Part shown: in pieces, positions 1,877 to 55,196 of the stretch | Numbering within the stretch: position 1 is the first letter of the stretch | Layout of the letters: each line of letters starts with the position of its first letter | From: Prolixibacteraceae bacterium | GTDB lineage: Bacteria; Bacteroidota; Bacteroidia; Bacteroidales; Prolixibacteraceae | Direction: 5' to 3' | Length of the DNA: 56,815 nucleotides | Assembly (NCBI GenBank): GCA_016930365.1 | Contig: JAFGGY010000181.1 | Location: forward strand, 1 to 56,815 | Position numbers and translations under genes: made by a program | The notes under the pieces: generated by a model | What the model was told of the DNA's origin: nothing | The model's input: the letters and a program-made list of their open reading frames with translations, nothing else | Database searches by the model: none

Positions 1877-2049
1877 GTTTGCTTATTCTTTATTTTTTTT
1901 TGTATTTTTCACCCCTCAAAAAACGCTTGTAATAAATATATGCGAAATGATGCTTGTTTCTCAGTTTATTAAGGGCGTTATTGTTTAGTCGTTCTGCGAG
2001 GTATTGAATGAATTAGAAGAGAAGGATGCGTTGCATAAAAAAAAACGAT

Positions 2050-2087
2050 ACAGAATAGGTGTTTAAGAACATATTCTGTGTTTTTTA
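2050..2087 (+). terminator. Possible intrinsic terminator upstream of tRNA-Ser
   Basis: ACAGAATA (2050-2057) pairs with TATTCTGT (2072-2079) around a 14-base loop and is followed by six T residues. It could end the ansA transcript. The loop is large and the stem AT-rich, so the call is tentative. The remaining 1877-2049 shows no gene. Confidence 0.4.
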
Positions 2088-2107
2088 CGTGATAATGTAC
2101 GATTTTT

Positions 2108-2194
2108 GGAGAGGTGCAGGAGTGGCTGAACTGGCACGCCTGGAAAGCGTGTGTACCTGGAAGGGTACCGAGGGTTCGAATCCCTCTCTCTCCG
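2108..2194 (+). tRNA. tRNA-Ser (anticodon GGA)
   Basis: An 87-nt class II tRNA. The acceptor GGAGAGG (2108-2114) pairs with TCTCTCC (2187-2193), with one G-U pair. The anticodon stem CACGC/GCGTG (2135-2139 / 2147-2151) encloses CTGGAAA with anticodon GGA at 2142-2144. A long variable arm follows, then the T arm GAGGG-TTCGAAT-CCCTC. The discriminator base is G. A complete CCA is not encoded: CA follows the discriminator, so the tail must be completed by nucleotidyltransferase. Confidence 0.97.
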
Positions 2195-2267
2195 CAATAT
2201 AGGTTGAATGTTTTTTTACATAAATAAAATAAATCAGAATAATTGTTGAATAAATTTAAAAATCATC

Positions 2268-3086
2268 ATGAAAAAATTATTTGCGTTAATAGCTGTTCTT
2301 ACGATATTCATGTTTGGAATGTCGGTAAATGTTGTTGCTCAGGACGAAGCTGAAGTTGCTACCGAAGAGGTTGCCGAAGCTGCTGATTCAACGACTTATG
2401 ATTTATACGAAGACACAGTGGAAGAAGAAGCTCTTAAAGTAGAAAGTGGGCTCTCACTTCACAGTCAGTTGAAACAAAAATTTATTGAAGGTGGACCTTC
2501 TTTTATGGCCACCGTACTTATTGCCTTAATTCTTGGTTTAGCTTTGGCTATCGAGCGTATTATTTACTTAAACCTTGCTTCAACGAATACCAAAAAATTG
2601 TTGGCAAAAGTTGAAGACGCTCTGGCTAACGGTGGTGTTGAAGAAGCTAAAGAAGTATGCCGCAATACTCGTGGTCCTGTTGCAAGTATCTTTTACCAGG
2701 GGCTTGACCGTTACGACGATGGCGTTGACGTTGTTGAAAAGTCAGTAGTTTCATACGGTAGTGTACAAGCCGGATTACTTGAAAAAGGTTTGAGCTGGAT
2801 AGCCCTGTTTATTGCGTTGGCTCCTATGCTTGGATTTATGGGTACTGTAATTGGTATGATTGGTGCATTCGACGCTATTGAGGTTGCTGGTGATATCAGC
2901 CCGTCGTTGGTTGCCGGTGGTATTAAAGTAGCTTTGATTACAACCGTATTTGGTTTGATTGTAGCGATTGTATTACAGATTTTCTATAACTATTGTGTTG
3001 CAAAAATTGACAGTATTGTAAACAGCATGGAAGATGCTTCTATTTCATTGCTTGATTTGGTTGTAAAACACAGTGCTAAAAAATAA
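2268..3086 (+). CDS. exbB: MotA/TolQ/ExbB proton channel family protein
   Basis: A 272-residue inner-membrane protein. A hydrophobic N-terminus with a likely cleavage after VVAQ (about residue 25) is followed by an acidic stretch (25-55), then three membrane segments near 78-100, 172-197 and 213-240. LAPMLGFMGTVIGMI in the second segment is the family hallmark. ExbB forms the pentameric channel that, with ExbD, uses the proton gradient to energise TonB or a similar envelope machine. The N-terminal signal-like extension is common in Bacteroidota ExbB proteins. The gene opens a four-gene block with tight spacing to 4643. Family assignment is firm; which partner it energises is not visible. Confidence 0.93.
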   Translation: MKKLFALIAVLTIFMFGMSVNVVAQDEAEVATEEVAEAADSTTYDLYEDTVEEEALKVESGLSLHSQLKQKFIEGGPSFMATVLIALILGLALAIERIIYLNLASTNTKKLLAKVEDALANGGVEEAKEVCRNTRGPVASIFYQGLDRYDDGVDVVEKSVVSYGSVQAGLLEKGLSWIALFIALAPMLGFMGTVIGMIGAFDAIEVAGDISPSLVAGGIKVALITTVFGLIVAIVLQIFYNYCVAKIDSIVNSMEDASISLLDLVVKHSAKK

Positions 3087-3094
3087 TTAAACTA

Positions 3095-3559
3095 ATGGAT
3101 AAATCACGTAAAATTACTACGATAGTACTTTGGGTATTAATGATCATATCTATAGCTTTTTTTGTTTACATGTTCGTGTCTATAGATAGTGAAACAGACC
3201 CAAGTGCAAAAGCAGTTGAGTTAATAACTTTAAATATTAATTGGGCCATCATTTTATTTGCCATTGGTGCAGTTATTATTTTGGTTTTTTCTCTACTGCA
3301 AGTGTTTGGCGATAAGTCTAAGCTTATTAATTCAGCTGTATTTTTAGTTTTATTTGCTGCTATTATAGGAATTGGATATGCCTTGGCTTCAAGCGATATT
3401 CCAAATTTCTTTGGCGTTGATAAGTTTATTGCAAATGGTACTGTTAACGAAACAATCTCTCGTTGGATTGGTACAGGTTTGCATGTAACTTATATTCTTT
3501 TGGGGGGTGCATTCCTTTCAATTATTGGATTTAGTACCGTCAAATTATTTAAACGATAG
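3095..3559 (+). CDS. Small four-TM membrane protein in the exbBD block
   Basis: A 154-residue protein with four predicted membrane segments (about 8-28, 48-68, 78-97 and 128-150) and almost no soluble domain. I do not recognise a characterised family. It starts 8 bp after exbB and precedes two exbD genes, so co-expression with the Exb machinery is very likely. The position suggests an accessory subunit or assembly factor, but that is inference from context only. The composition is strongly hydrophobic with aromatic residues at membrane borders. Confidence 0.8.
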   Translation: MDKSRKITTIVLWVLMIISIAFFVYMFVSIDSETDPSAKAVELITLNINWAIILFAIGAVIILVFSLLQVFGDKSKLINSAVFLVLFAAIIGIGYALASSDIPNFFGVDKFIANGTVNETISRWIGTGLHVTYILLGGAFLSIIGFSTVKLFKR

Positions 3560-3595
3560 AGTAGCGATGTTTTATAACATCTAAAATTAATAATT

Positions 3596-4177
3596 ATGCC
3601 AAAAAAATTACCTGAGTATAATGCTTCCTCGTTGGCCGACATCGCTTTCATGCTACTGATGTTCTTCCTGGTTGTTACAACCATGGACGTTGATAGTGGA
3701 CTGGAGCGTCGTTTACCTCAATGGATCGATCCTGAAGATATTGAGGATACTCCGCCAATTAAGGAACGTAACGTTTTTGTTGTTCTCGTCGATCGTAACA
3801 ATCGTTTGATGGTCGAGGGCGAACTTACACGGGTAGAAGACTTAAAGGATAAAACCAAAGAATTTCTTACAAACCCTGCAAATGATGTAAATTTGCCGGA
3901 AAAAGAGGTGAAGGAAATACCTTTCTTCGGACCTTACGAGGTGTTGACCAAGAGCTCTGTAATATCGTTGCAAAACGATGTCGGTACAACTTATGGTACC
4001 TACATTGCTGTTCAAAACGAATTGCTTGCAGCAATTAATGAGTTGCGCGATGACTTGTCGAAGAAAAAATTTGGTAAAGCATTCAATGATCTCAATTCCG
4101 ATCAGCAAGATGCTGTTAAGGAAATCTATCCGCAAAAGATATCAGAAGCTGAACCTAGAAAAATAGGAGGACGATAG
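3596..4177 (+). CDS. exbD: ExbD/TolR family protein (first copy)
   Basis: A 193-residue protein with one N-terminal membrane segment. SLADIAFMLLMFFLVVTTMD (about residues 12-31) contains the conserved transmembrane Asp needed for proton coupling in ExbD/TolR. The rest is a periplasmic domain, longer than the usual 135-150 residues and with a charged C-terminal part. It partners ExbB encoded at 2268. The next exbD begins one base after the stop codon. Two non-identical ExbD proteins per block are usual in Bacteroidota and may form a mixed dimer (inference). Confidence 0.92.
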   Translation: MPKKLPEYNASSLADIAFMLLMFFLVVTTMDVDSGLERRLPQWIDPEDIEDTPPIKERNVFVVLVDRNNRLMVEGELTRVEDLKDKTKEFLTNPANDVNLPEKEVKEIPFFGPYEVLTKSSVISLQNDVGTTYGTYIAVQNELLAAINELRDDLSKKKFGKAFNDLNSDQQDAVKEIYPQKISEAEPRKIGGR

Positions 4178-4178
4178 T

Positions 4179-4643
4179 ATGTCAAAATTTAGAAAAAGTG
4201 ATAATAAAGAAACTCCTGCTATTTCAACAGCATCATTACCTGATATTGTGTTTATGTTGTTATTCTTTATCATGGTTTCAACAACCATGCGCGAAACAAC
4301 AATGAAAGTTCGGGTTTCATTACCTGAAGCTACAGAAATATCTAAACTCGAGAAAAAATCGCTCGTTAGTTATATTTATGTGGGGCCTCCACAGCAACAA
4401 TTTGTTTCACAAATGGGTAGTGAGCCTCGTATTCAGCTTAACGACGACTTTAAAGATGTTAAAGATATAATCGACTATGTTGAGTCTGAACGTCAGTCGT
4501 TGGAAGAGCAAGAGCAAAAACAAATGATTGTATCGCTTAAAGTGGATGAATATACCAAAATGGGTATTGTTACTGACATAAAGCAGGAATTGCGAAAAGC
4601 AGCAGCATTGCACATTAACTATTCAACTAAAAAAGGAAAATAG
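4179..4643 (+). CDS. exbD: ExbD/TolR family protein (second copy)
   Basis: A 154-residue paralogue of the preceding ExbD, with the same N-terminal membrane segment and Asp (SLPDIVFMLLFFIMVSTTM, about residues 19-37) and a shorter periplasmic domain. Translation is probably coupled to the first exbD, since only one base separates them. It closes the block; a hairpin terminator follows. The two copies share the membrane anchor but differ in their periplasmic part, which suggests different contacts. Confidence 0.92.
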   Translation: MSKFRKSDNKETPAISTASLPDIVFMLLFFIMVSTTMRETTMKVRVSLPEATEISKLEKKSLVSYIYVGPPQQQFVSQMGSEPRIQLNDDFKDVKDIIDYVESERQSLEEQEQKQMIVSLKVDEYTKMGIVTDIKQELRKAAALHINYSTKKGK

Positions 4644-4670
4644 AATAAATTTGTTTTTATGATATTATTT

Positions 4671-4703
4671 AGGGCAATCGTAATACGGTTGCCCTATTTT
4701 ATT
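4671..4703. terminator. Terminator between converging exbD and glgB
   Basis: AGGGCAATCG (4671-4680) pairs with CGGTTGCCCT (4686-4695), with one G-U pair, and a T-rich tract follows on the plus strand. It lies in the 58-bp gap between converging genes and ends the exb block. Confidence 0.75.
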
Positions 4704-6708
4704 ATCTAATTTTTTGAAATCCTTCTCGCTTGAGTACAAAGGCTGTGCGCGAAGGGATATATAAGCGCAAATAATGCTGCTTGGTGTCCGATGGTATGGT
4801 GTAATAATTTATTTGTTCATCGATACGGTCGAAGCCTCCAAGGTGTCCGGCGTCGGTGTTTAGTACAATCTTAAACTTATTGGCGTCCATTGGGATGCCA
4901 TAGTCGGGAAACGATTGGCTGGGATTAAAATTGAAAACAAACAGGAAGTTGCCCCTGGAATAAGCGATTACCTGGTCGGTTTTATTTTCCCATATTTTCC
5001 AAACCTCCGGTATTGATAACAGGTTCGATTCGGATATGAGATCTATCATTTCCTTGTCGAAGTCTTTTAGCCAATGATATTTTAGTTCAACATTGTCTGA
5101 AATGCTCCATAGCCTGCGTGCATGTTTGTACGACCAATGATTTCCTTCTCTTGGAAAGTCAATCCATTCGGGATGCCCAAATTCGTTGCCCATAAAGTTT
5201 AGGTAAGCGCCACCTGCACAACTGGCAGTAATCAAACGTATCATTTTGTGCAGTGCTATGCCCCGGTCAACAGCTAAGTTGGGCTGATCCTTGCGCATGC
5301 TGAAATACATTTCTTTGTCGATAAGTCTGAAAATGATGGTTTTGTCGCCAACAAGAGCTTGGTCGTGACTCTCGGCATAGCTCACCACTTTTTCATCGTC
5401 GCGATGGGCGGTCATGTTATGAAATATCTCACCAACCTCCCAATTTTCATCCTTTTTTTCTTTTATGGTTTTTATCCAGTAATCTGGAACACCCATGCTC
5501 ATTCGATAGTCGAACCCGAGGCCTCCATCGCTTATTTGCGCGGCTAAACCGGGTAATCCACTCATGTCTTCGGCTATTGAAAGTGCAAGTGGGTTTACCT
5601 CGTGAATGAGTTTATTGGCCATAATAAAATACGAAATAGCTTCGTAATCAAGGTTCGGCGTAAAATAATCGTCGTAGCCATTAAATGCTTTTCCAAGCCC
5701 ATGGTCGAGATACAGCATGCTGGTTACGCCATCGAAACGAAAACCGTCGAATTTGTATTCTTCGAGCCAGTATTTAAGGTTCGATAGCAAAAAGTGCAGA
5801 ACTTCGTTTTTACCGTAATTAAAGCAGTACGAGTCCCATGCCGGGTGTAGGCCTCGTCCACCGTCGTGAAAAAACTGGTATTGCGTACCATCGTATCGAC
5901 CCAGACCTTCTACCTCGTTTTTTACTGCATGCGAGTGGATAAGATCCATAATAACAGCTATACCCATTTGGTGGGCTTCGTCGATTAGTCTTTTTAGGTC
6001 TTCGGGAGTGCCAAAGCGCGACGAAACAGCAAAAAAACTTGACACATGATATCCGAAACTTCCATAATATGGATGTTCGGGAATAGCCATGAGTTGCAGT
6101 ACATTATATCCGGCTTTATTTATACGTGGAAGTATTTCTTCTCTGAAAGAATTAAAAGTATGCACTTTTTCGGTTTCGCCCGACATGCCAATATGTGCTT
6201 CATAAATGAGGGGGGCAGAGTCTTTGCGTTTAAACGTAGAAATTTGCCAATTATATGGGTTGTCAGGAAACCATACTTGGGCGTTAAATATTTTGGTTTC
6301 AGAGTCTTGTATAACTCGCGTTGCCCAAGCGGGAATACGCTTGCCTTCGCCTCCTTCCCATTCTATTTGCAAGGCATAAAGGTCTTTGTGTTTCAGCTGC
6401 TTTTGGTCGAGAACAAGCTCCCACACTCCCTTGCTAATTTGTACGAACGCATAGTCAGAATTCTTGCTCCAATGACAAAAATCTCCAATAAGATAGATGT
6501 TTGTTGCATTGGGTGCCCACTCCCGAATGTGCCATTTGTTGCCGTTCTGATGCAATCCAAAGTAGTGATGCCCCATGGCAAAATCGTAAAGCGATTTGTT
6601 GCCGGTAAGTTCGATTTCTTTTTCGTCCGATTGTAAACACCATTCAAGTATCGAATTGGAAAAGGGTTTTAGCCATGGGTCGTTATCAATTAAGCGTAAG
6701 TTCTTCAT
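4702..6708 (-). CDS. glgB: 1,4-alpha-glucan branching enzyme (GH13)
   Basis: A 668-residue cytosolic enzyme that cuts alpha-1,4 glucan chains and rejoins them by alpha-1,6 links during glycogen synthesis. An N-terminal CBM48-like domain (about 45-150, with HIREWAPNATNIYLIGDF) precedes the GH13 barrel. Catalytic landmarks are FDGFRFDGVTSMLY (nucleophile Asp), SIAEDMSG (acid/base Glu) and AESHDQALVGDK (third carboxylate). GNEFGHPEWIDFPREGN and the overall length resemble the eukaryotic-type branching enzymes common in Bacteroidota more than E. coli GlgB. It lies 66 bp downstream of kdsB on the same strand and may be co-transcribed with it. Confidence 0.92.
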   Translation of the reverse strand: MKNLRLIDNDPWLKPFSNSILEWCLQSDEKEIELTGNKSLYDFAMGHHYFGLHQNGNKWHIREWAPNATNIYLIGDFCHWSKNSDYAFVQISKGVWELVLDQKQLKHKDLYALQIEWEGGEGKRIPAWATRVIQDSETKIFNAQVWFPDNPYNWQISTFKRKDSAPLIYEAHIGMSGETEKVHTFNSFREEILPRINKAGYNVLQLMAIPEHPYYGSFGYHVSSFFAVSSRFGTPEDLKRLIDEAHQMGIAVIMDLIHSHAVKNEVEGLGRYDGTQYQFFHDGGRGLHPAWDSYCFNYGKNEVLHFLLSNLKYWLEEYKFDGFRFDGVTSMLYLDHGLGKAFNGYDDYFTPNLDYEAISYFIMANKLIHEVNPLALSIAEDMSGLPGLAAQISDGGLGFDYRMSMGVPDYWIKTIKEKKDENWEVGEIFHNMTAHRDDEKVVSYAESHDQALVGDKTIIFRLIDKEMYFSMRKDQPNLAVDRGIALHKMIRLITASCAGGAYLNFMGNEFGHPEWIDFPREGNHWSYKHARRLWSISDNVELKYHWLKDFDKEMIDLISESNLLSIPEVWKIWENKTDQVIAYSRGNFLFVFNFNPSQSFPDYGIPMDANKFKIVLNTDAGHLGGFDRIDEQINYYTIPSDTKQHYLRLYIPSRTAFVLKREGFQKIR

Positions 6709-6774
6709 ATCTGATAATAATTTTTCTAAATTATGAAAATCTTTCGACTTCCGTTAGGCTCAAAACAAATTACT

Positions 6775-7533
6775 TTAACCAATATTTTTTTGCTTTTCAA
6801 GAATGCGTAAAACCCGTTGAAGATCTTCAGGCGTATCGATGCCAATATTTACTTCGTTAGTGTGTGCAACTTTTATTTTGTACCCATTTTCGAGCCAGCG
6901 TAACTGTTCAAGTTTTTCGGCTAATTCTAAAGGTGTTTGGCTTAACTTGGCTAATGCTGCAAGAGTTTTGGCCCGATAAGCATAAAGCCCCAGATGCAGG
7001 CGGTAAGGCTGTTTATTTAACCATTCTTTTTTGTCGATATCGCGCTGAAAAGGAATGGTTTGACGGCTAAAATACATGGCGCGATGGTTGATATCGCAAA
7101 CCACTTTAACTTTGTTGATATCGAAAAGTGTTTCGTATGTCGAAATGGTGGTTGACAGGGTCGCAATATCGGTTTGGTTATCGTCGAAACAGTCCAGCAG
7201 GCTTTTGATTTGATTTTCGATAAAAAAAGGTTCGTCGCCCTGGATGTTTACCACGATATCAAAATCAATTGTTTCTTTTATAATTTGAGCGGCTTCGGCA
7301 CAGCGATCGGTGCCACTTTGATGCTCGGGAGAAGTCATTACTACATTGCCTCCAAATGATTTTACGGTATCGGCAATTCGTTGGTCGTCGGTGGCAACTG
7401 CCGCATAATCAAACAGTGCTTTGCTGCGTTCATATACGTGTTGTACCATGGGTTTGTTGCCGATTATGGCAAGCGGTTTGCCCGGAAAGCGAGTCGATGC
7501 ATAACGAGCCGGTATAATTGCGATAGCTATCAT
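6775..7533 (-). CDS. kdsB: 3-deoxy-manno-octulosonate cytidylyltransferase (CMP-KDO synthetase)
   Basis: A 252-residue cytosolic enzyme that activates KDO with CTP to CMP-KDO for LPS inner-core synthesis. The N-terminal IIPARYASTRFPGKPL is the nucleotide-binding signature. NIQGDEPF (about residue 97) and the C-terminal GIDTPEDLQRV are also typical. The length matches the family (about 245-255). It is the first gene of a minus-strand pair with glgB, downstream of a TATCTTTG box. A KDO enzyme implies an LPS-bearing Gram-negative outer membrane. Confidence 0.95.
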   Translation of the reverse strand: MIAIAIIPARYASTRFPGKPLAIIGNKPMVQHVYERSKALFDYAAVATDDQRIADTVKSFGGNVVMTSPEHQSGTDRCAEAAQIIKETIDFDIVVNIQGDEPFFIENQIKSLLDCFDDNQTDIATLSTTISTYETLFDINKVKVVCDINHRAMYFSRQTIPFQRDIDKKEWLNKQPYRLHLGLYAYRAKTLAALAKLSQTPLELAEKLEQLRWLENGYKIKVAHTNEVNIGIDTPEDLQRVLRILEKQKNIG

Positions 7534-7569
7534 TGAATTGAGTATGTAGTGAGTTTATTGATTTAACAA

Positions 7570-7577
7570 CAAAGATA
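7570..7577 (-). promoter_or_regulatory. Bacteroidota -7 box for kdsB
   Basis: On the minus strand this reads TATCTTTG, an exact TAnnTTTG match, about 37 bp before the kdsB ATG. No convincing -33 element is seen. Confidence 0.45.
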
Positions 7578-7668
7578 ATTAAATGTTGTAATGCACGGAT
7601 GGACTGTAGTAATAATGGTTTTTCGATTTTTTTAACGAACAAGAATTATAAATAGTACGGTAAAATTG

Positions 7669-7676
7669 TAACTTTG
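7669..7676 (+). promoter_or_regulatory. Bacteroidota -7 box for the sigma-54 activator operon
   Basis: TAACTTTG matches TAnnTTTG. It overlaps an in-frame TTG at 7674 that could otherwise be read as a start. A transcript starting just after this box cannot use that TTG, which supports the ATG at 7719. Confidence 0.55.
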
Positions 7677-7718
7677 TCAGTTAAATCGGAAAAAATAGCA
7701 TGTAACACGAAATGTAAT

Positions 7719-8981
7719 ATGGTCGACACTCAGGATATTAAACAACGGTTTGGGATTATTGGTAGTTCGGCAGCTCTAAACCGAGCCATCGAGGTTGCGG
7801 TACAGGTTGCTCCAACCGATTTGTCGGTTTTGATTACCGGCGAAAGCGGGGTGGGTAAGGAGGTATTTCCGCAAATTATTCATCAGTTCTCGGCTCGAAA
7901 GCATGGTAAATACATTGCTGTAAACTGCGGAGCAATACCCGAAGGAACAATCGATTCGGAACTTTTTGGCCATCTAAAAGGTTCGTTTACCGGAGCACTA
8001 TCCGACCGGAAAGGGTATTTTGAAGTAGCCGATGGTGGTACCATTTTTTTGGATGAAGTGGGCGAATTGCCCCTGGCTACACAAGTTCGTTTGTTACGTG
8101 TTCTTGAGGCTGGAGAATTTATAAAAGTTGGTTCTTCACAAGTTCTGAAAACGAATGTGCGGGTGGTTGCTGCTACCAATGTTGATATTCAGAAAGCTAT
8201 TGGCGAAGGCAAATTTCGCGAAGATTTATTTTACCGTTTGAATACTGTGCCGGTGGTCGTTCCTCCTTTGCGCGAAAGGAAGGAAGACATTAACTTGTTG
8301 TTTCGAAAATTTGCACACGATTTTGCCGAGCGATATCGGATGCCAACCATTCGGCTCGACGACGATGCAAAGCATGTGTTGAATACTTTTCAGTGGCCCG
8401 GCAACATCAGACAATTGAAAAATGTGGCCGAACAAATTTCGGTTATCGAAGAAGAACGTGTAATCGATGGTGCTACCATGCGTGCTTATTTGCCACATTT
8501 TCACGAACATCAGCTACCTGCCTTGTATAAGCAAACCGATGAAAATACCTTTGCCTCAGAACGGGAGATTCTTTACAAGGTTTTGTTCGATATGAAAAAA
8601 GACATGACCGATTTGAAGAAACTGGTATTCGATTTGATGCAAAATAACACCTCAGAAAATCAGGTTAAAACTGATAATGCCCGGATTATAAGTAAGTTGT
8701 ATGCCGAGGATAAGGACGATTTCAAAGTAGATGATATAACGAATCCAGACGATGAATATACGCATGTTCCACTGGTTCACACATCTAAAATCGACGAGTC
8801 GCATCACATTGAGGATACCGAAGAATATGTAGAGGAATCGCTTTCGCTTGAAAAAAATGAAAAGGATTTGATCGAAAAGGCACTCGAAAAATACAATGGC
8901 AAACGCAAAAATGCAGCAAAAGAACTCGGCATTTCTGAACGAACCTTGTACCGCAAAATAAAAGAATACAACATTGGTTAA
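7719..8981 (+). CDS. Sigma-54 interaction domain (AAA+) regulator with Fis-type HTH
   Basis: A 420-residue bacterial enhancer-binding protein. The AAA+ domain starts almost at once, with no receiver or sensor domain. GESGVGKE is Walker A, GSFTGA is the sigma-54 contact loop (a variant of GAFTGA), and IFLDEVGEL is Walker B. An acidic linker of roughly 110 residues (about 255-375) leads to a Fis-type helix-turn-helix at the end (NAAKELGISERTLYRKIKEY). It would remodel RNA polymerase-sigma-54 at target promoters. It heads a tight operon with lptE, a TPR-like gene and secG. Its targets are unknown; with no sensory domain, control is probably by level or by a partner (inference). Confidence 0.9.
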   Translation: MVDTQDIKQRFGIIGSSAALNRAIEVAVQVAPTDLSVLITGESGVGKEVFPQIIHQFSARKHGKYIAVNCGAIPEGTIDSELFGHLKGSFTGALSDRKGYFEVADGGTIFLDEVGELPLATQVRLLRVLEAGEFIKVGSSQVLKTNVRVVAATNVDIQKAIGEGKFREDLFYRLNTVPVVVPPLRERKEDINLLFRKFAHDFAERYRMPTIRLDDDAKHVLNTFQWPGNIRQLKNVAEQISVIEEERVIDGATMRAYLPHFHEHQLPALYKQTDENTFASEREILYKVLFDMKKDMTDLKKLVFDLMQNNTSENQVKTDNARIISKLYAEDKDDFKVDDITNPDDEYTHVPLVHTSKIDESHHIEDTEEYVEESLSLEKNEKDLIEKALEKYNGKRKNAAKELGISERTLYRKIKEYNIG

Positions 8982-9000
8982 GCTCTATAATATCAGGAAT

Positions 9001-15290: not shown

Positions 15291-15833
15291 TTATCGGTTG
15301 CGACGGTTTTGCCAATTACGTAATCCACGATTATTCTGATTTTGAGGATGAATAGCTTGTTCGCTACTGAGCATACTTTCAAAAATCAGAGCGAGTTGTT
15401 TTTGTTGCTCTGGGTTAAGCTCTTGCTGAAGCTGGTAATAATACGCAAAAGTTGTTTTTTTTAATTCACTGTGTTTTTCACCTAAAAGAATTGCAAGACT
15501 GTCGAGTGTTTGTTTGTCGGGCTGAGAACTTTTCATTGCCATAGCCATTTTGGCACGAATCGTATTGAGTTCGTTTACAATTTGGTTAGCATTTTGGTGA
15601 TAGGCACGTCTGTAGGTTCTGAACTTTTGTTGTTGGTTGATGTCGAGGTTTAGGGTGTCGCGAAAGAAACGTCCGATTTGTTGGTCGGGAATGCTAATTG
15701 CTTCGGTATCGCTTGCTAAAGTTGCTTGTTGCTCGCTTTTCAGATGACTGCGAAAGGTAGCAATCGTAGCAATGTTGATGCCCAGTAATAAAACAACCAG
15801 CGATATTAATATTGTTTTTGTAGTGGGTTTCAT
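15291..15833 (-). CDS. Membrane-anchored Spy/CnrX-like periplasmic sensor
   Basis: A 180-residue protein with one N-terminal hydrophobic segment (about 7-28) that lacks an obvious cleavage site, so it probably stays anchored with its body in the periplasm. The body is helical and charged and has an LTxxQ-like motif (LNPEQQKQL, about 138-146), as in Spy/CpxP/ZraP/CnrX proteins. Its start overlaps the stop of the anti-sigma gene by four bases (ATGA), so the two are translationally coupled and share the ECF-type promoter at 16274-16299. A role in sensing envelope or metal stress and passing it to the anti-sigma factor is inferred by analogy with CnrX. No metal-binding His cluster is evident. Confidence 0.82.
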   Translation of the reverse strand: MKPTTKTILISLVVLLLGINIATIATFRSHLKSEQQATLASDTEAISIPDQQIGRFFRDTLNLDINQQQKFRTYRRAYHQNANQIVNELNTIRAKMAMAMKSSQPDKQTLDSLAILLGEKHSELKKTTFAYYYQLQQELNPEQQKQLALIFESMLSSEQAIHPQNQNNRGLRNWQNRRNR

Positions 15834-16249
15834 TGTTCGTTGTCGTTTAAAAGTTGGTATTCAAGGCGTTCGATTTTTGTATCGTCGAACAGGTAAGCCA
15901 TTGTATAGGTTTGTTCGCTTGAATCGGTTGGAATGGTTGCCCTACCAACGGCAACACCAATAATAATTCCAATTACAAGAACGGCTGTTATCCATGCGGT
16001 TTGAAGTGCCCGATTGGGACGAAGAACCATTGTGGCTGATTGTCGTGCCTGAATGCGGGTGTACAAAAACGGTTTCACCCGGGTTTCTTTTTCTGCATCG
16101 ACAAGCGAAAGGGTGCTGCGCAGGTACTGCAATTTTTGCATGCAGCCGCTGCACTGTTCAAGATGAACTTCGACGTTTTGCTTTTCGGCTATCGAAAGTT
16201 CGTTCTCGAGGTAGGGCATTAATTGCTTTTCTATGCGACGACAATCCAT
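15830..16249 (-). CDS. Zinc-finger (zf-HC2) transmembrane anti-sigma factor
   Basis: A 139-residue protein. The N-terminal cytoplasmic domain carries HLEQCSGC, the HxxxCxxC motif of zinc-binding anti-sigma domains that hold ECF sigma factors. A single membrane segment follows at about 85-103 (AWITAVLVIGIIIGVAVG), then a short periplasmic tail. The start at 16249 (MDCRRIEKQL) is chosen over an in-frame ATG at 16321 because that one lies upstream of the promoter motif at 16274-16299. The ECF sigma gene is divergent at 16425 and is its probable target. The gene is coupled to the Spy-like gene downstream. Confidence 0.9.
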   Translation of the reverse strand: MDCRRIEKQLMPYLENELSIAEKQNVEVHLEQCSGCMQKLQYLRSTLSLVDAEKETRVKPFLYTRIQARQSATMVLRPNRALQTAWITAVLVIGIIIGVAVGRATIPTDSSEQTYTMAYLFDDTKIERLEYQLLNDNEQ

Positions 16250-16273
16250 TGTTTTGTTTTTTTTTGAAAGTAT

Positions 16274-16299
16274 GACACCTAATATAATGAAAACTTGCG
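16274..16299 (-). promoter_or_regulatory. ECF-type promoter for anti-sigma/Spy operon (motif copy 1)
   Basis: On the minus strand: CGCAAGTTTT, an 11-bp spacer, then GTGTC. The same two blocks with the same spacing occur at 16340-16365 and 17057-17082. It lies 25 bp before the anti-sigma ATG at 16249. The layout (a -35 block and a short -10 block) fits ECF sigma recognition. Confidence 0.8.
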
Positions 16300-16339
16300 C
16301 CTGAAACTTGTTTTTTTTCAAAATCGTTGTTTTTTCTTT

Positions 16340-16365
16340 CGCAAGTTTTTGTATGCTTTGGTGTC
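16340..16365 (+). promoter_or_regulatory. ECF-type promoter for the sigma gene (motif copy 2)
   Basis: CGCAAGTTTT (16340-16349), 11-bp spacer, GTGTC (16361-16365), 59 bp before the sigma ATG at 16425. It is divergent from copy 1, with 40 bp between the -35 blocks. It implies positive autoregulation of the sigma factor. Confidence 0.8.
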
Positions 16366-16424
16366 AAAATGTTATAAATTGGACGTTTTACGATTAGTAA
16401 ACTTCGTAGATTATTTTTAACTAC

Positions 16425-16988
16425 ATGAACGATAATCTGATAAAAAGACTCAAGCAAAACGACGAACGTGCTTTTCGAGAGTTGGTTGACGAATATCAGC
16501 AAATGGTTTTTTCTGTTTGCCTGGGCATCGTTCACAGTTCCGATGATGCCGACGATGTGGTTCAGGAGGTTTTTATCGATGCTTTTCGGTCGGTGCATAA
16601 ATTCCGTGCCGATTCAAAAATATCAACCTGGCTGTATCGGATTGCCGTAAATAAATCGTTGAATTTTATTCGCGACAATAAGCGACGAAGATTTTTTCAA
16701 TCGATTGGAGCTGTCGATTCTCCCGATATTGCCGACGAACAGCACCAAAGTGAAATGCCCTATCATTCGATGGTTGAGAAAGAACGCGCCGAAATTTTGC
16801 ATAAGGCGGTGGATGCCCTTCCGGCAAAACAGCGTACAGCTTTTGTGCTTAGTAAGTACGAAGATTTGTCGTATGCCGAAATTGCCGAAGTTATGAATAC
16901 TTCTATCGCATCGGTTGAGTCGTTGTTGTTCAGGGCAAAGCAAAATCTTCAAAAGAAATTATTGAATTGCTATAAAAAAAAGTGTTAG
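16425..16988 (+). CDS. ECF-family RNA polymerase sigma factor
   Basis: A 187-residue sigma-70-like factor with only regions 2 and 4. Region 2 is at about 20-85 (DDADDVVQEVFIDAFRSV for core binding, STWLYRIAVNKSLNFIRD for -10 recognition). Region 4 is at about 128-180 (LPAKQRTAFVLSKYEDLSYA, then a helix-turn-helix with SIASVESLLFRAKQNL). The divergent neighbour is its probable anti-sigma factor. The CGCAAGTTTT-N11-GTGTC promoter in front of this gene, in front of the anti-sigma operon and in front of the next gene suggests that it drives all three. The inducing signal is unknown but probably at the envelope. Confidence 0.93.
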   Translation: MNDNLIKRLKQNDERAFRELVDEYQQMVFSVCLGIVHSSDDADDVVQEVFIDAFRSVHKFRADSKISTWLYRIAVNKSLNFIRDNKRRRFFQSIGAVDSPDIADEQHQSEMPYHSMVEKERAEILHKAVDALPAKQRTAFVLSKYEDLSYAEIAEVMNTSIASVESLLFRAKQNLQKKLLNCYKKKC

Positions 16989-17056
16989 TAAACTGCCAGT
17001 CTGTTAGTTCTTTAAGTGAGTAACTCAATTTTGATTCAGATAAAGTTAAAAATAAG

Positions 17057-17082
17057 CGCAAGTTTTTTTTGTGGAGTGTGTC
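17057..17082 (+). promoter_or_regulatory. ECF-type promoter for the second Spy-like gene (motif copy 3)
   Basis: CGCAAGTTTT (17057-17066), 11-bp spacer, GTGTC (17078-17082), 43 bp before the ATG at 17126. It is the third occurrence with unchanged spacing. Confidence 0.8.
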
Positions 17083-17125
17083 CTATCATCAAAAGTTTGT
17101 TTTTAACCATTTAATATTTGAAATC

Positions 17126-17641
17126 ATGAAAACACAAATTTTATCAAAGTCATTATTCGTATTGTTTATAGCAGGATTTTTAACAACATCGGCTTTTGCT
17201 TACAATGGTAGGGGTCGTAATGTTGCTAATACACCACAAGATGCATCCATGATTTGTTTGCAGCAGCTTCCGAATTTAACACCCGAACAAAGCGAGCAAA
17301 TTGCAGCTCTTTATGAAGCACATCAGGCCGAGATGCTGGCCTTGCGAACCGAACGTCGTTCAACGGTTGATTTTGCCGAAAAGGATGCTGTACGTGCCGA
17401 GATGGACGAGTTGGTGAAAAAACATCGCGAAGATGTTAAAGCATTGCTTACCGACGAACAGATTGTTGTTTACAATCAATTATACCGGAACGATGCGTAT
17501 GGGAACCAGCGAATGGGGATGGCCGGAAGGCGAGGAGCAAGAAAAGTGGGGGTAGGAGTAAGTAATTTTAATGGACAACGAAACGCCACCATACGAGGAA
17601 CCCGGCGTGGAGGAAACAGTCGTGGCTACGGATGGCGTTAA
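17126..17641 (+). CDS. Periplasmic Spy/CpxP-like protein
   Basis: A 171-residue exported protein. The signal peptide ends near residue 25 (TSAFA). The mature part has an LTPEQSEQI motif (about 51-59, the LTxxQ signature) within a charged helical region, and a second LTDEQIVVYNQLY near 112. The C-terminal 45 residues are rich in Gly and Arg (AGRRGARK, RGTRRGGNSRG), likely disordered and strongly basic. Spy-like proteins act as periplasmic chaperones or metal-responsive proteins. The start at 17126 is preferred because it follows promoter copy 3; an upstream in-frame ATG at 17069 lies inside that promoter. This is probably an effector of the adjacent sigma factor. Confidence 0.85.
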   Translation: MKTQILSKSLFVLFIAGFLTTSAFAYNGRGRNVANTPQDASMICLQQLPNLTPEQSEQIAALYEAHQAEMLALRTERRSTVDFAEKDAVRAEMDELVKKHREDVKALLTDEQIVVYNQLYRNDAYGNQRMGMAGRRGARKVGVGVSNFNGQRNATIRGTRRGGNSRGYGWR

Positions 17642-24123: not shown

Positions 24124-26160
24124 ATGATTGAACTAAAAGAAATGAACCTGAAAGCTTTAGCAATGGCTGTTTTTTGTATCATGTTATGTGCTAAAATAAC
24201 TTGTGCGGCAACATCCGATACAATTAAAATTGATGAAGTAGTAGTAACAGGAACCAAAACAAAGCGTGCATTAAAAGAAGTGCCTGCACGAATTAACATT
24301 ATCAGCTCACAAATGATTGAGGAAATACCGGTTATGCAAACCGATGATTTGCTGCGCTTCACGACGGGAGTGAATATCAACCGTTCAACGGGTATTTACT
24401 CGCAACGTCCAATGATTACACTTCGCGGTTTATCTGGCGATGAGCAAGCCCGTACCCTGGTGCTGATGAATGGAATACCGATGAACACCTCGGATGAAGG
24501 CGGTGTGAATTGGAACCGGATTAACCACAACGACATCGAGCAGATTGAAGTTTTTAAAGGCCCAGGCTCATCACTATACGGCAACAATGCAATGGGGGGC
24601 GTTATCAATATCATCACCAAAAAACCAAAAAAAGATAAAGAAGCTTATGCTTCAATATCGTACGGAACACTTAATACGGTTAGACAAGATCTGGGGCTTA
24701 GGTTGAAAAATGAAAACGGATATTATGCTGTTTTATCGCAATATTATCTAAAAAGCGATGGATACATTAACCTGCCTGAAGAAGACCGAACAGCGTTTGA
24801 TATTGCCCGTTCACTTGAAGAAACCGGCTTGTCGGCAAGGGTTGGCAACGAACAAAACCCATGGCTCCGCTGGGAACTTCAATACGACATTTTCAGGGAC
24901 AAACGTGGCGAAGGGTACCAAATTTACACCCCATCGGGTTGCTACCGTAATTTCGATACCAACTTTTTGCGGGGCATCTTAAACGGCGGCAATACAAAAA
25001 CACAATATAACTTCAACATATTTTACCAATTGGAGCATTACTACGATGTGAATGAACGATTACGTAGCAATTCTTATTCACGCTACGATGTCGATTCGTA
25101 CCGTAAAGACTATGGCGCTTTGTTTTCAGTATCGCATAAGCTGATTGATGGCAACACGTTAACGACCGGCTTGGAAGTGAAACAGGGCAGCATTGCCGGT
25201 GGCGATTATTATCAAACCGCCCCTTATGACACCATTTATAACGAAGGAAAAACACGAACGTATGCCGGGTATATACAGGATGAATACACATTTTGGGACG
25301 AAAGAATAACCATGGTTGCCGGGTTGCGTTTTGACCATGTGCAATTTTTTGATGGTCATTATGACACTACCGACCCCTGGAATACCACTCCTGAACTAAC
25401 AGACAATAGTTGGAATTCATTTTCGCCACGCCTTGGGTTTCGCTTCAATTTTGTTGAAAATATGAGTGCATATATAAACTACTCGCATGGTTTCAGGGCA
25501 TCGATACTTGATGACCTTACCCGCACCGGATGGATGTGGGTTGGCCCAAAATACGCAAACCCCGACCTCGGGCCTGAGTCGCTCGATAATTTTGAAGCCG
25601 GCATTGATTACAGCCTTAATAAAAAACTCGATATTTCGGCTACGGCCTGGCTTTCAAAGGGCGACGACTTTTTATATTACGTAAGTACGGGCGACAGCCT
25701 GTGGGGACGCCCAATTTCGATTCGCGAAAATGTAACCGGTATCACCTCGCACGGGCTTGAGGTGGAAGCGAAATACCGTCCAACATCCAGTATCAACCTG
25801 GGGGCAGGTTATACTTTTTCGCAGTCAAACATCGACCAATTCGATGAACGACCCGAGTTGGAAGGCAAGGCACTTAAATATGCACCCGAACATGTTGCTT
25901 CGTTTGTTGCCATGTGGATAAACAACCTGGCAAACGTTTCGATAACCGGCCAATACAAGGGGCAGCAATTTACAGACGATACCAATACCCAAACCATTGA
26001 AAGTTATACAACTTTTGATGTAATGATTTCAAAATCGATTGGAAAAAACCTTACGTTGTCGGTTGATGTACGTGACATAATGAACAACAAACATCTCGAA
26101 ACAGCTGAATATTTGTCGCCTGGCAGGCTCGTTTCGCTCAAAGCAAGTATTAAATTATAA
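24124..26160 (+). CDS. TonB-dependent outer-membrane receptor
   Basis: A receptor of up to 678 residues. The signal peptide is near the N-terminus; an in-frame ATG at 24142 (MNLKALAMAV) gives a better signal peptide than 24124. A TonB box-like DEVVVTGTK follows, then the plug domain (RINIISSQMIEEIPVMQTDD, GNNAMGGVINIITKKP) and the 22-strand barrel ending in the aromatic-poor SLKASIKL. There is no N-terminal carboxypeptidase-like domain, unlike SusC proteins; this points to a siderophore/cobalamin-type receptor. It starts an operon with a binding protein and FecCD permease. The ligand is not identified. Confidence 0.93.
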   Translation: MIELKEMNLKALAMAVFCIMLCAKITCAATSDTIKIDEVVVTGTKTKRALKEVPARINIISSQMIEEIPVMQTDDLLRFTTGVNINRSTGIYSQRPMITLRGLSGDEQARTLVLMNGIPMNTSDEGGVNWNRINHNDIEQIEVFKGPGSSLYGNNAMGGVINIITKKPKKDKEAYASISYGTLNTVRQDLGLRLKNENGYYAVLSQYYLKSDGYINLPEEDRTAFDIARSLEETGLSARVGNEQNPWLRWELQYDIFRDKRGEGYQIYTPSGCYRNFDTNFLRGILNGGNTKTQYNFNIFYQLEHYYDVNERLRSNSYSRYDVDSYRKDYGALFSVSHKLIDGNTLTTGLEVKQGSIAGGDYYQTAPYDTIYNEGKTRTYAGYIQDEYTFWDERITMVAGLRFDHVQFFDGHYDTTDPWNTTPELTDNSWNSFSPRLGFRFNFVENMSAYINYSHGFRASILDDLTRTGWMWVGPKYANPDLGPESLDNFEAGIDYSLNKKLDISATAWLSKGDDFLYYVSTGDSLWGRPISIRENVTGITSHGLEVEAKYRPTSSINLGAGYTFSQSNIDQFDERPELEGKALKYAPEHVASFVAMWINNLANVSITGQYKGQQFTDDTNTQTIESYTTFDVMISKSIGKNLTLSVDVRDIMNNKHLETAEYLSPGRLVSLKASIKL

Positions 26161-26162
26161 CA

Positions 26163-27251
26163 ATGAAGAAAACTATTCTCATATTATGTGTTTTAATGCA
26201 AGTGCTGTTTTTAGCTTGCAAGCACCAGCAAAACCAAAATGCAGCAAATACCCGCACATTTACCGACATGCTGGGCCGGCAGGTTCAACTGCCCGACACC
26301 CTGAACCGCATTGTTGGCGTGCGAGCCAGTGCCCTCCGTATGTTGCTGTACATGGATGCTGCCGATAAAATTGTTGGCATTGAGGATATTGAACACCGCA
26401 ATGAGCGTCCTTACATTCTGGCTCATCCTGAACTACTGAAACTACCAACCATTGGCCCTATGATGGGGGGCGATGCCGAGTTGATTTTAAAAGTCAGGCC
26501 AGAAGCTATTTTTATAACTTACGCTACCATAGAAGATGCCGACCGGCTACAAAAACAAACCGGTATCCCGGTTGTGGCTATCGATGCAACCGAATTTGGA
26601 ATTGCACGCGATACCTTGTTTTCTACATTCAGGATGCTTGGAAAAATATTACATAAAGAAGCCCGTGCCGATTCGCTGGTACATTTTATCAACCACAATA
26701 TAGAGGAATTAGATCAACGTACGAATGACTTACCCGAAACGGAAAAACCCACTGCCTATATTGGTGGCGTACCATACAGTGGGGCTCATGGCATCACTTC
26801 AACCCAACCCTACTACCCGCCTTTTATGTTCTTAAATGCCAAAAACGTAGCTGCCGAAGTGAAGGACGAAAGCTATTCTCATGTGCGTGGTACTTACATA
26901 GATAAAGAACAGCTGTTGCTGTGGAACCCCGGGTATATTTTTATTGACAATTCGGGTTTATTACTAACAAAAAACGACCTTGCATCGGGTAGCTCGTTGC
27001 AGGAAAGCCTCAATGCCATTCAAAATGGACAAACCCATGTGGTAATGCCCTATAACAATTATGCCACCAACTACGAATTGGTGCTGGCCAATGCCTGGTA
27101 TATCGGGAAAGTACTTTATCCCGAACAGTTTGCAGACATCAACATTAAAGAAAAAACCAATGAAATAACCCAACAGTTTTTGGGCGCAAAGCTATACGAT
27201 AGCTTGACATCACAAACCCCGATTTTTGAACCAATAAACCTGTTAAAATGA
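26163..27251 (+). CDS. ABC transporter substrate-binding lipoprotein (FepB/BtuF class)
   Basis: A 362-residue lipoprotein with a lipobox FLAC at Cys19. The mature part is a cluster A-II (Peripla_BP_2) binding protein: FTDMLGRQVQLPDTLNRIVG opens the first lobe, RPEAIFITYA lies before the linking helix, and the second lobe contains NPGYIFIDNSG. Proteins of this class bind Fe-siderophores, haem or corrinoids. The gene begins two bases after the receptor stop, and its own stop overlaps the permease ATG (ATGA). The ligand cannot be read from the sequence. Confidence 0.92.
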   Translation: MKKTILILCVLMQVLFLACKHQQNQNAANTRTFTDMLGRQVQLPDTLNRIVGVRASALRMLLYMDAADKIVGIEDIEHRNERPYILAHPELLKLPTIGPMMGGDAELILKVRPEAIFITYATIEDADRLQKQTGIPVVAIDATEFGIARDTLFSTFRMLGKILHKEARADSLVHFINHNIEELDQRTNDLPETEKPTAYIGGVPYSGAHGITSTQPYYPPFMFLNAKNVAAEVKDESYSHVRGTYIDKEQLLLWNPGYIFIDNSGLLLTKNDLASGSSLQESLNAIQNGQTHVVMPYNNYATNYELVLANAWYIGKVLYPEQFADINIKEKTNEITQQFLGAKLYDSLTSQTPIFEPINLLK

Positions 27252-28306
27252 CCGAAAAAATTGTAGCACAATACAAAAAGTTTATTCGCCGGCGGGTTTG
27301 GTTTATGGTACTTACCGTATTATTGCTCATCGGCTTTGCTGTTCTGGCTTTGGTTTCAGGTTCGGCCGACACCTCATTTTCGTCGTTGCTGAGGGTTATT
27401 AGTGGAAACGGCGAGCCATTTTCATCGCAAATTATACTTTCGATACGGCTGCCACGGGTTATCGGGGCAGTATTGGCCGGAACTGCACTGGCTGTTTCAG
27501 GTGCCGTTATACAAAGCTTGTTAAAAAACCCGCTGGCATCGCCGTTTACCCTTGGCATATCGGGTGCGGCAGCTTTTGGGGCCGCTTTCGCCATTATTTT
27601 TCTGGGGGCAGGTAGTGGCTATAGTGGGCCGGCCGATGCAGCTATTGTTGACAACCCATACGTGGTCACCCTTTCAGCATTTATCTGGAGTTTGGTGAGC
27701 GTGTTGGTCATCTTGTTTTTATCGAAATACAAAGGTGCGACCCCCGAGGTTATTATCCTGTCGGGCATCATCATTTCATCACTTTTTGGCGCCGGCATAT
27801 CGGCCATGCAATATTTTTCGGACGATGTGCAACTGGCAGCCATCGTGTTCTGGACCTTTGGTGACATGGGGCGGGCTACCTGGCGCGAAACCATTATTAT
27901 GTCAGCTGTTTTGGTACCGGTGATGGCATTTTTTCTGCAACAAAGCTGGAATTATAAATCGTTGCAATCGGGCGACGAATATGCCCGCAGCCTCGGGGTA
28001 AACGTAACCCGTGTGCGGCTTACCGGCATGGTGGCAGCATCGCTGGCTACGGCGGTGGTGGTATCGTTTTTCGGGGTGATTGCCTTCGTTGGGCTGGTTG
28101 TACCACACATTGTCAGGCGCATAATAGGCTCCGACGAACACTTTGTGATTCCGGCCTCTGCCCTGTTTGGCGGCGCATTTCTGTTGCTCAGCGACACACT
28201 GGCCCGTACAGCCCTGGCACCTGTGATTATGCCCGTAGGCATACTTACTTCGTTTATCGGTGCCCCATTGTTTTTGTTTTTGCTAATTCGGGGGATGAAA
28301 CGATAA
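27248..28306 (+). CDS. FecCD-family ABC transporter permease
   Basis: A 352-residue inner-membrane permease with about ten membrane segments. RLPRVIGAVLAGTALAVSG is the family signature near the N-terminus, and GVIAFVGLVVPHIVRR near residue 275 is the coupling-helix region that contacts the ATPase. It overlaps the binding-protein gene by four bases. The partner ATPase is not adjacent: a chemotaxis receptor gene on the other strand lies between (28334-29437). Confidence 0.94.
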   Translation: MTEKIVAQYKKFIRRRVWFMVLTVLLLIGFAVLALVSGSADTSFSSLLRVISGNGEPFSSQIILSIRLPRVIGAVLAGTALAVSGAVIQSLLKNPLASPFTLGISGAAAFGAAFAIIFLGAGSGYSGPADAAIVDNPYVVTLSAFIWSLVSVLVILFLSKYKGATPEVIILSGIIISSLFGAGISAMQYFSDDVQLAAIVFWTFGDMGRATWRETIIMSAVLVPVMAFFLQQSWNYKSLQSGDEYARSLGVNVTRVRLTGMVAASLATAVVVSFFGVIAFVGLVVPHIVRRIIGSDEHFVIPASALFGGAFLLLSDTLARTALAPVIMPVGILTSFIGAPLFLFLLIRGMKR

Positions 28307-28333
28307 AGTTATTAGCACGGAAAATTCGAAAAA

Positions 28334-29437
28334 TTACAATTTGAAAAATGATATGGTTTTGTTTAACGAGTCAGCCTGAGCTGCAAGTTCTTCTGCGCTG
28401 GCAGCCATTTCTTCTGAAGTTGTAGCGTTTTGTTGTGTGATATTATTTAAATATTGACTTGATTCATTGACTTGCTTAATTCCGGTTGATTGTTCAATGC
28501 TCGATTTAGAAATATCTTGTGAAATAGAAACAGACTCCAGTATTTGGGGTAACATGTCAGCAATTTTCTGTTCGGCCAATTTTCCCAGATGGGAACTTTT
28601 TAAAGAAATTTCTATAACTTCACTTGCTAACTCTTTTGTTTGCGATGCTAATCTTTTAACTTCGTCGGCAACAACTGCAAAACCTCGGCCTTCTTCCCCT
28701 GCTCGCGCTGCTTCAACGGCAGCATTTAATGCCAGTAAGTTTGTTTGGAAAGCAATACTGTTTACCATCGAAAGCTTTTCTGTAATATGATTGTACGCTT
28801 TAATTGCTTCGCGAGTACTGGCAACAACTTCAGTTACTGCTTTTTCAGTTTCAATTGCAATTATGCCTGATTTTGCAACTTTTTCGATACTAATCTGAAG
28901 CATGCTATCTATATCTTCAGTTGTTGCAGATAGTTCTTCGATTGAAGATGCTTGTTCAGAAGCACTTTGCGAAAGACTTTCGGAAGTGCTACTTAGTTGT
29001 TGGCTACTTAAGCTAAGTGTGTCTGAGTGCGATTTTATTTCAGACGTAATATTTCTTAGGTTTTTAATCAAATTTGAAGTTGATATTTGAATCATTTTAA
29101 CTTCGCCTTTCACATTCAGATTCTTTATCGTAAAATCCAGGGTTCCTTTTGAAAGGTCGTCAATTTGTTGCGCAATACTTTTAAGGGGGAAGGCTACTTT
29201 TTTACGTATTAACAACACATAACCCAAAAGAGTAATATAAACAACTGGCACAGCCCAAAATAAGTGTGAAGTACCTTTTTGTCCAACGATATTGAAGCAC
29301 AACCCCGATATTATTGCAATAAATAATGTGCTAAATGCAACGGATGATGCGATGGTGTTCTTTAGAAAAATACGTACCAGTATTATGGAAACGATTATTG
29401 ATGCAGAAGCCACTAGGACAATTGATAGAATTCTCAT
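28334..29437 (-). CDS. Methyl-accepting chemotaxis protein without periplasmic sensor
   Basis: A 367-residue receptor. Three hydrophobic segments fill residues 4-78 with almost no loop between them, so there is no classical periplasmic ligand domain. A HAMP-like stretch follows (about 83-135). The signalling domain has the conserved hairpin tip [20 protein letters not shown] and [15 protein letters not shown], which bind CheA/CheW in known systems. No che genes or motility genes are in the window. It is inserted, in reverse, between the permease and ATPase genes of one transporter, and its base composition is more AT-rich than theirs. Function as a chemotaxis or other signalling receptor is inferred. 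Confidence 0.9.
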
Positions 29438-29853
29438 ATTAAATGGATAATGTGTTAATTTAAATGAGGGTGTATTTGTATATACAACGATTACAAATGT
29501 ATAAAAAATATGATAATTTTTTTAAGAAAGTTAATCTTAGAAAAAATGTTGATTATTTTAAAAATGCATACTCAAAATGAGGACTGTTAATATCAACAGT
29601 ACGTTAGATTTTAGTACCCCAGCCGCTGTGCGGTATATTCAAAAAACTAACGCTTGTGAGTTAAATAAAAGACATGAGACTTTGTTTGTAATAAATTAAA
29701 TGTCAGCAACATAGGTAATTAAATCAATAAAACACAAATGTCTCATTATTGACAACTTAAAAAACAACAACGAACAATTGAATATAGAAATGTATATTTA
29801 AACTATACAAGAAAAAATGCGAATCAAGGTGTCTTTTTGTATATTTACACCCT
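29438..29853. other. 416-bp intergenic region between divergent MCP and ABC ATPase genes
   Basis: No gene was found. On the minus strand CAAATGTA at 29494-29501 reads TACATTTG, a good -7 box for the MCP gene. ACTGTT/AACAGT (29583-29600) forms a short inverted repeat. Just before the ATPase ATG, GGTGT and ACACC flank a TATATTTA box (29831-29851), which could be an operator. All of these are weak, single-copy signals. Confidence 0.4.
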
Positions 29854-30615
29854 ATGAAAATTTCCATTTCAAACATATCATTTAGCTACAACGGCACACC
29901 AACCCTTAGCAATATTGGTTTCGATATTGAAAAAGGTGACCTTGTTGCCCTGGTGGGACCCAACGGCTCGGGGAAAAGTACACTCATAAAATGTATGAAT
30001 GGCATTTTAAAACCACATCAGGGCACGATTCTTATTAACGAAAAAACGCTTAGCGACTACACCCCCGGTGAACTGGCACAGGAAATAGCCTACATCCCAC
30101 AAAACGAAAACCGCAATGCCAGCATGAATGTCTTCGATATGGTTTTGCTGGGGCGCAAACCTTATATCAACTGGAAACCATCGGAACACGATTTACAAAT
30201 TACTGCCGAAATAATCGATGCACTGCACATCGGTCAATTATCGATGCGTCCGTTTAACAAGCTTAGCGGGGGCCAGCAACAGACCGTTTACATTGCCCGT
30301 GCCCTGGCACAGGAACCCGATATATTGCTGCTCGACGAGCCTACATCGAACCTCGACATGCAACACCAACTGGAGGTGTTGGAACTATTAAAAAATTTCA
30401 CCCAAAAAGGGCTTACCGTTATTATTGCCCTACACGATATAAACCTGGCTGCCCGCTATGCCAACAAAATGATGATGCTAAAGTCGGGGCGCGTATTTGC
30501 TGCCGGGACAACCGAAATTATAAACGAACCTAACATCGAGAATCTTTTTGGCATTAAAGTGAAAATTATAAAAGACGACGGGGATTTGTTTGTGATTCCA
30601 AAAGGATTGAAATAA
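29854..30615 (+). CDS. ABC transporter ATP-binding protein (FecE/BtuD class)
   Basis: A 253-residue ATPase. VGPNGSGKSTLIKCMNG is Walker A (about 35), LSGGQQQTVYIARALAQ the ABC signature, ILLLDEPTSNLD Walker B, and the switch His lies in IIALHDINLAARY. The domain fits iron-chelate/cobalamin importers and is the expected partner of the FecCD permease ending at 28306. It is now about 1.5 kb away, with its own upstream region. Its codon use (many GCC/CTG/CCC codons) resembles the permease rather than the gene in between. Confidence 0.94.
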   Translation: MKISISNISFSYNGTPTLSNIGFDIEKGDLVALVGPNGSGKSTLIKCMNGILKPHQGTILINEKTLSDYTPGELAQEIAYIPQNENRNASMNVFDMVLLGRKPYINWKPSEHDLQITAEIIDALHIGQLSMRPFNKLSGGQQQTVYIARALAQEPDILLLDEPTSNLDMQHQLEVLELLKNFTQKGLTVIIALHDINLAARYANKMMMLKSGRVFAAGTTEIINEPNIENLFGIKVKIIKDDGDLFVIPKGLK

Positions 30616-55188: not shown

Positions 55189-55196
55189 AATCGAAT

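Follow-up and report, generated by a model that had tools for sequence, protein, structure and literature searches.

A conserved bipartite motif as the likely promoter of an autoregulated envelope-stress ECF sigma system in Bacteroidota

Introduction

The CnrYXH system of Cupriavidus metallidurans combines an ECF sigma factor with a membrane anti-sigma factor and a membrane-anchored periplasmic protein of the CnrX fold, places autoregulated promoters ahead of its regulator genes, and has the efflux operon cnrCBA under the control of CnrH. These features, with autoregulation as a prediction, recur in the locus described below or, in the case of a HlyD_D23/ACR_tran/OEP efflux operon preceded by the shared motif, in its relatives. 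The two systems nevertheless differ in several respects: CnrY is a small anti-sigma of class II whereas the anti-sigma found here is a zinc-finger protein of class I, the DNA analysed here lacks an efflux operon and has a secreted Spy-like protein as its constant output, and CnrH and the sigma factor of this locus are distant relatives only (48 bits).

Likewise shared with the RpoE-RseA and Spy/CpxP responses of E. coli are the pairing of an ECF sigma with a membrane anti-sigma, a predicted autoregulation, and a periplasmic output of the Spy/CpxP type, and E. coli sigma-E, together with Pseudomonas SigH, is among the nearest solved structures to the sigma factor studied here. This sigma nonetheless scores 135 bits against the RpoE equivalog (TIGR02939), below the curated cut-off of 236 bits; moreover, the locus has no RseB and its -35 and -10 elements are different. 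In E. coli, RpoE is not known to control Spy itself.

Within the Bacteroidales, EcfO of Bacteroides and the M0N98_03761/03760 pair of P. vulgatus also mediate ECF-type envelope or oxidative stress responses, but employ large, periplasm-spanning anti-sigma factors with an outer-membrane barrel (PMC9308784), whereas the locus described here encodes a 139-aa zf-HC2 protein and a separate CnrX-fold partner. Only 6% of Bacteroidota ECFs are reported to lie beside a class I anti-sigma (PMC7406223). A literature search for CAAGTTTT together with "sigma factor" returned no matching system, and the open papers searched describe no promoter for this Bacteroidota ECF lineage.

Genes of the locus

The window, meaning the whole analysed stretch of 56,815 nucleotides, belongs to the draft genome of a Prolixibacteraceae bacterium (3.3 Mb, 216 contigs, 89% complete). 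It contains the following genes:

15291-15833, minus strand: membrane-anchored periplasmic four-helix protein of the CnrX/Spy fold, 180 aa (Metal_resist/LTXXQ; predicted structure)
15830-16249, minus strand: membrane anti-sigma factor, 139 aa (zf-HC2, Pfam PF13490; H29-x3-C33-x2-C36)
16425-16988, plus strand: ECF sigma factor, 187 aa (Pfam Sigma70_r2 and Sigma70_r4_2; orthologs; N80 the proposed -10 reader)
17126-17641, plus strand: secreted Spy/CpxP-like protein, 171 aa (LTXXQ, Pfam PF07813), the output gene

The sigma factor comprises sigma2 and sigma4 domains only, as is the case for ECF (group IV) proteins, and scores 114.9 bits against the sigma70-ECF model TIGR02937 (cut-off 42.9). Class I (ASDI) zinc anti-sigma factors are defined by an Hx3Cx2C motif in the N-terminal anti-sigma domain (PMC7406223), and the neighboring zf-HC2 protein carries exactly this motif, with H29, C33 and C36 each 96% conserved among 69 orthologs. 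For the membrane-anchored protein, a structural model (pLDDT 87) finds its best solved matches in CnrX (Z 11.1, rmsd 2.9 over 104 residues), followed by a Salmonella VirG-like protein, ZraP, Spy and CpxP, and its family profile retrieves ZraP and the VirG-like protein; the fold is a helical bundle and the Foldseek E value for the CnrX match is only 6e-3. H121 is invariant in this family and H30 is 76% conserved; both are candidates for counterparts of the CnrX metal ligands. Because its best structural matches are to CnrX, the protein is a probable co-sensor and the system may work as CnrYXH does, with a sigma factor held by a membrane anti-sigma and a CnrX-fold partner acting as sensor; because its anti-sigma is of class I with Hx3Cx2C, the system is not itself a member of the CnrYXH group.

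Conservation of the module was assessed over the window and 80 named Bacteroidota loci: of these 81, the anti-sigma is present in 74, the membrane-anchored protein in 72 and all four genes in 55. Typically the genes all point the same way, beginning with sigma and continuing with the anti-sigma, the membrane-anchored and the secreted protein. The anti-sigma gene pair is inverted in the window and in its close relatives, an arrangement that divides the operon into three and so creates a need for three motif copies in the window. Sigma orthologs with one in-frame stop inside the match were seen in seven genomes (G076, G357, G220, G386, G340, G305 and G079), for which an end-of-gene stop, decay or sequence error are all possible.

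Motif copies in the window and the draft genome

The initial annotation reported three exact copies of CGCAAGTTTT-N11-GTGTC, and a scan of the window recovers precisely these, at 16274-16299 (minus), 16340-16365 (plus) and 17057-17082 (plus). With up to three mismatches allowed, a single further match appears, within groEL at 12188. Under a dinucleotide model, 0.0002 exact matches are expected in the window and the probability of three or more is 1.6e-12; the three copies are thus far beyond chance. Among all patterns of a 10-mer, a gap of 5 to 19 and a 5-mer, this is the sole one present three times in the window. Comparison of the named loci and the window extends the consensus to CGCAAGTTTT-N11-GTGTCWWA, the conserved WWA after GTGTC being absent from the motif as originally given. 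The resulting predicted promoters are:

16271-16299, minus strand: anti-sigma operon promoter; -35 CGCAAGTTTT at 16290-16299, 11-bp spacer, -10 GTGTCATA at 16271-16278; 24 bases from the end of GTGTC to ATG 16249 (minus)
16340-16368, plus strand: sigma gene promoter; -35 CGCAAGTTTT at 16340-16349, spacer, -10 GTGTCAAA at 16361-16368; 59 bases from the end of GTGTC to ATG 16425 (plus)
17057-17085, plus strand: secreted Spy-like gene promoter; -35 CGCAAGTTTT at 17057-17066, spacer, -10 GTGTCCTA at 17078-17085; 43 bases from the end of GTGTC to ATG 17126 (plus)

The gene assignments of the initial annotation were right, with starts at these three ATG codons, and longer TTG-started reading frames at 16321 and 17069, which overlap the promoters, probably do not represent real starts. 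In the whole draft genome the only exact matches are the three window copies; the motif is not common and unrelated to gene starts genome-wide. With a relaxed pattern, the genome yields two additional one-mismatch hits as compared with six for a reversed control. Further regulon members were sought among such mismatch hits and rejected, as the hits are at control level and the genes downstream of the sites on contigs C87 and C126 are not regulon-like. The detectable regulon in the organism's own genome consists of the three transcription units of the locus only. The suggestion that the motif would serve as a search key for the whole regulon consequently holds in part: the key marks three units, but its own genome yields no more than these.

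Conservation of the putative promoter in relatives

Sites with at most one mismatch are present at 66 of 80 orthologous loci. The 11-bp gap first noticed in the window proves equally rigid in relatives: with gaps of 4 to 18 allowed in 61 genomes, 32 of 33 exact pairs have a gap of 11, and the 80 named loci contain 64 exact sites at gap 11 versus one at gap 12. Such a rigid spacer is required of ECF promoters (PMC6411747). In total, the 80 loci contain 120 sites of this quality (one mismatch at most), which lie before anti-sigma genes (59), sigma genes (43), Spy-like genes (6) and others (12). Scripted assignment accounted for 57, 42 and 6 of these, respectively, and the 15 left over were read by hand as 2 anti-sigma, 1 sigma, 6 DUF4405-type, 3 DUF2202-like, one 133-aa protein and 2 without assignment. 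Anti-sigma ATGs usually lie approximately 20-22 bases from the site, sigma ATGs approximately 32.

Placement of the sites follows operon structure. The CnrX-fold gene, second in its operon, has a site in front in 0 of 76 cases, while a separate site precedes the Spy-like gene in 6 of the 9 loci in which this gene stands detached versus 1 of the 47 in which it is operon-linked (p = 2e-5). Sites are also more alike within a locus than between loci (0 of 2000 shuffles). The motif stands before the sigma gene itself and before its orthologs, and positive autoregulation is predicted. Comparison of loci shows CGCAAGTTTT-N11-GTGTCWWA to be a putative -35/-10 pair that marks where three units begin: the sigma gene, the operon of anti-sigma and CnrX-fold protein, and the Spy-like gene when detached.

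Two narrower views of the distribution were rejected. The motif is not confined to the near family, as it spans the order Bacteroidales, and orthologs outside the order are not without it: the -35 and gap are unchanged before both these orthologs and Spy-like genes, while the -10 reads NCGTC or NCATC.

Residue 80 and the -10 element

The hallmark of early ECF surveys, AAC in the -35 and CGT in the -10, is no longer considered defining (PMC8103513); the promoters described here carry AAG and TGT, and CGT appears in the -10 of the branch with D at residue 80. Among all sigma positions, mutual information with the -10 class peaks at position 80, where N is accompanied by TG in 90 of 91 cases, D by CG in 7 of 8 and E by CA in 9 of 9. 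The sole N exception is N with GG (L099), some D and E sites carry at least two -35 mismatches, and several E80 loci have no recognisable site. The -35 and -10 evolve separately, and it is the -10 that tracks the sigma2 residue.

By the shared pattern W-L-Y-R-I-x-x-N-x-x-x-N, residue 80 corresponds to N92 of Mtb SigH, which contacts the -11 base pair (PMC6411747). The -11 position is that of the third base of GTGTC, but the clean split between N and D/E falls at position 23, one step upstream of the pair contacted by SigH N92. A code in which N, D and E at residue 80 specify TG, CG and CA may be proposed; it is only a proposal because the counts are of sequences rather than independent events. 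The (quick) trees force a minimum of two changes, and in them TTGTC/N lineages fall among the C-type ones. The same principle underlies the code of Todor et al. 2020 (PNAS), which, as described in a paper citing it (PMC8103513), uses the sigma2 and sigma4 residues of autoregulated ECFs to predict -10 and -35 bases.

We lean toward the view that a single orthologous ECF lineage has kept its -35 and spacer frozen while the -10 dinucleotide before TC switched among TG, CG and CA in step with residue 80 (N, D and E). If true, this would constitute a natural one-residue specificity switch that keeps a sigma factor and all of its promoters in register, and the pairing makes it possible to test, through one residue, how ECF specificity might change without loss of the regulon.

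Which factor reads the motif

We hold with high confidence that the three sites serve an autoregulated envelope-stress ECF system as its promoters. A transcription-factor site could likewise consist of two conserved blocks at a fixed spacing, and the motif might then be the operator of a DNA-binding regulator at housekeeping promoters rather than a sigma promoter. This is improbable: the site is asymmetric, always co-oriented with its gene and a short distance from the start, GTGTCWWA with a -35 core 15 bases upstream of GTC has ECF promoter geometry, the two blocks evolve separately with the -10 linked to a sigma2 residue, and the 81 loci have no other regulator gene in common. Still harder to credit is that the three near-identical blocks within 800 bases arose by recent duplication or belong to an inserted repeat and play no part in regulation, a reading already contradicted by spacers and flanks that differ while both blocks stay fixed and by a pattern that is conserved throughout the order and also outside it, there with an altered -10.

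Slightly less probable than the operator is a reading in which the sites are ECF promoters whose main reader is another ECF sigma, with the sigma encoded here as a target. ECF cross-talk is known, and a first-look search found up to 23 sigma-like candidates in the genome. Against this reading stands the distribution of the sigma factor. The exact site occurs in 29 of 392 Bacteroidales genomes, and a strict cut-off for the sigma is passed in 25 of these 29 versus 75 of the 363 without the site (Fisher p = 1e-12); in three more (G425, G312 and G313) a homologue just under the cut-off lies beside the site, such that, near-cut-off homologues included, the sigma is present in 28 of 29. The sole unexplained genome, G108, has the exact site with no sigma found. 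There the site (C179, 5553-5581; locus L173) precedes a gene for a 265-aa outer-membrane-like protein. The covariation of the -10 with residue 80 likewise argues for this sigma, and would tie the motif to it better than proximity does. Given spacer rigidity, orientation and distance, co-occurrence, operon logic and covariation, the motif is most likely an ECF promoter read by the sigma encoded between its copies, and the recognition function proposed for it in the initial annotation is thereby supported.

Proposed mechanism

At rest, the sigma factor would be held by the zinc-finger membrane anti-sigma. A periplasmic signal, perhaps metal or misfolded envelope protein, might be detected with the CnrX-fold partner assisting, leading to release of sigma. 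In the holoenzyme, sigma4 would read CGCAAGTTTT and sigma2 would read GTGTCWWA, with N80 predicted to help in reading the TG. The expected output is more sigma (positive feedback), more anti-sigma and sensor (shut-off), and more periplasmic Spy-like protein (protection). While the circuit, an autoregulated ECF regulon, is of an ordinary kind, the lineage has an unusual promoter; what is gained for a Bacteroidota ECF lineage is a key to its promoters, together with a stress regulon and a sigma factor with its cognate anti-sigma, with added interest in the covariation of promoter and residue.

Candidate regulon genes in relatives

In relatives, the motif is found before Spy-like genes elsewhere, OMP_b-brl_3/Plug outer-membrane proteins, multihaem cytochromes, DUF4405 membrane proteins, DUF2202 proteins, and RND efflux and OMP/TonB-type genes. 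These genes would point to envelope protection and to metal or redox stress. An OEP-HlyD_D23-ACR_tran efflux operon with the motif is present in two relatives, L064 and L068, and no such operon was found in the organism's own genome by genome scan nor in the window. In L064 the region is:

7745-8986, 6526-7776, 3417-6536, 1486-3333 and 571-1386, all minus strand: efflux operon region, OEP-HlyD_D23-ACR_tran behind the motif

There the efflux operon is followed by genes for a multihaem cytochrome and for a lipoprotein of 272 aa, the latter having a motif copy of its own.

In several Prolixibacteraceae the sigma gene is immediately preceded by a motif-bearing DUF4405 membrane protein gene (L061, 649-1461, minus; L073, 2066-2956, plus; further cases at L088, L097, L101, L119, L133 and L151), which probably heads the sigma operon. 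Also seen were small secreted proteins that combine a D-x-D/N-x-D-G-x-C-D-x-Y repeat with a Gly/Lys-rich tail (L043, 348-665, minus; L065, 1839-2210, plus; L080, 7265-7561, plus). The motif is upstream of two of these, and that of L080 follows a motif-bearing Spy-like gene; the one protein scanned has no Pfam match.

Other genes of the window

Three further features elsewhere in the window are suggested by sequence inspection alone. A reading frame at 31939-33042 (plus) resembles a fusion of TrmO/TsaA-type and FmdE-type domains. Three putative CotH-type kinase-like proteins are encoded at 30740-31912, 33039-37526 and 55173-56723, the second being very large with an apparent C-terminal sorting tail. 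A methyl-accepting-chemotaxis-like gene at 28334-29437 (minus) lies on the opposite strand inside a predicted uptake cluster (24124-30615) of TonB receptor, binding protein, permease and ATPase.
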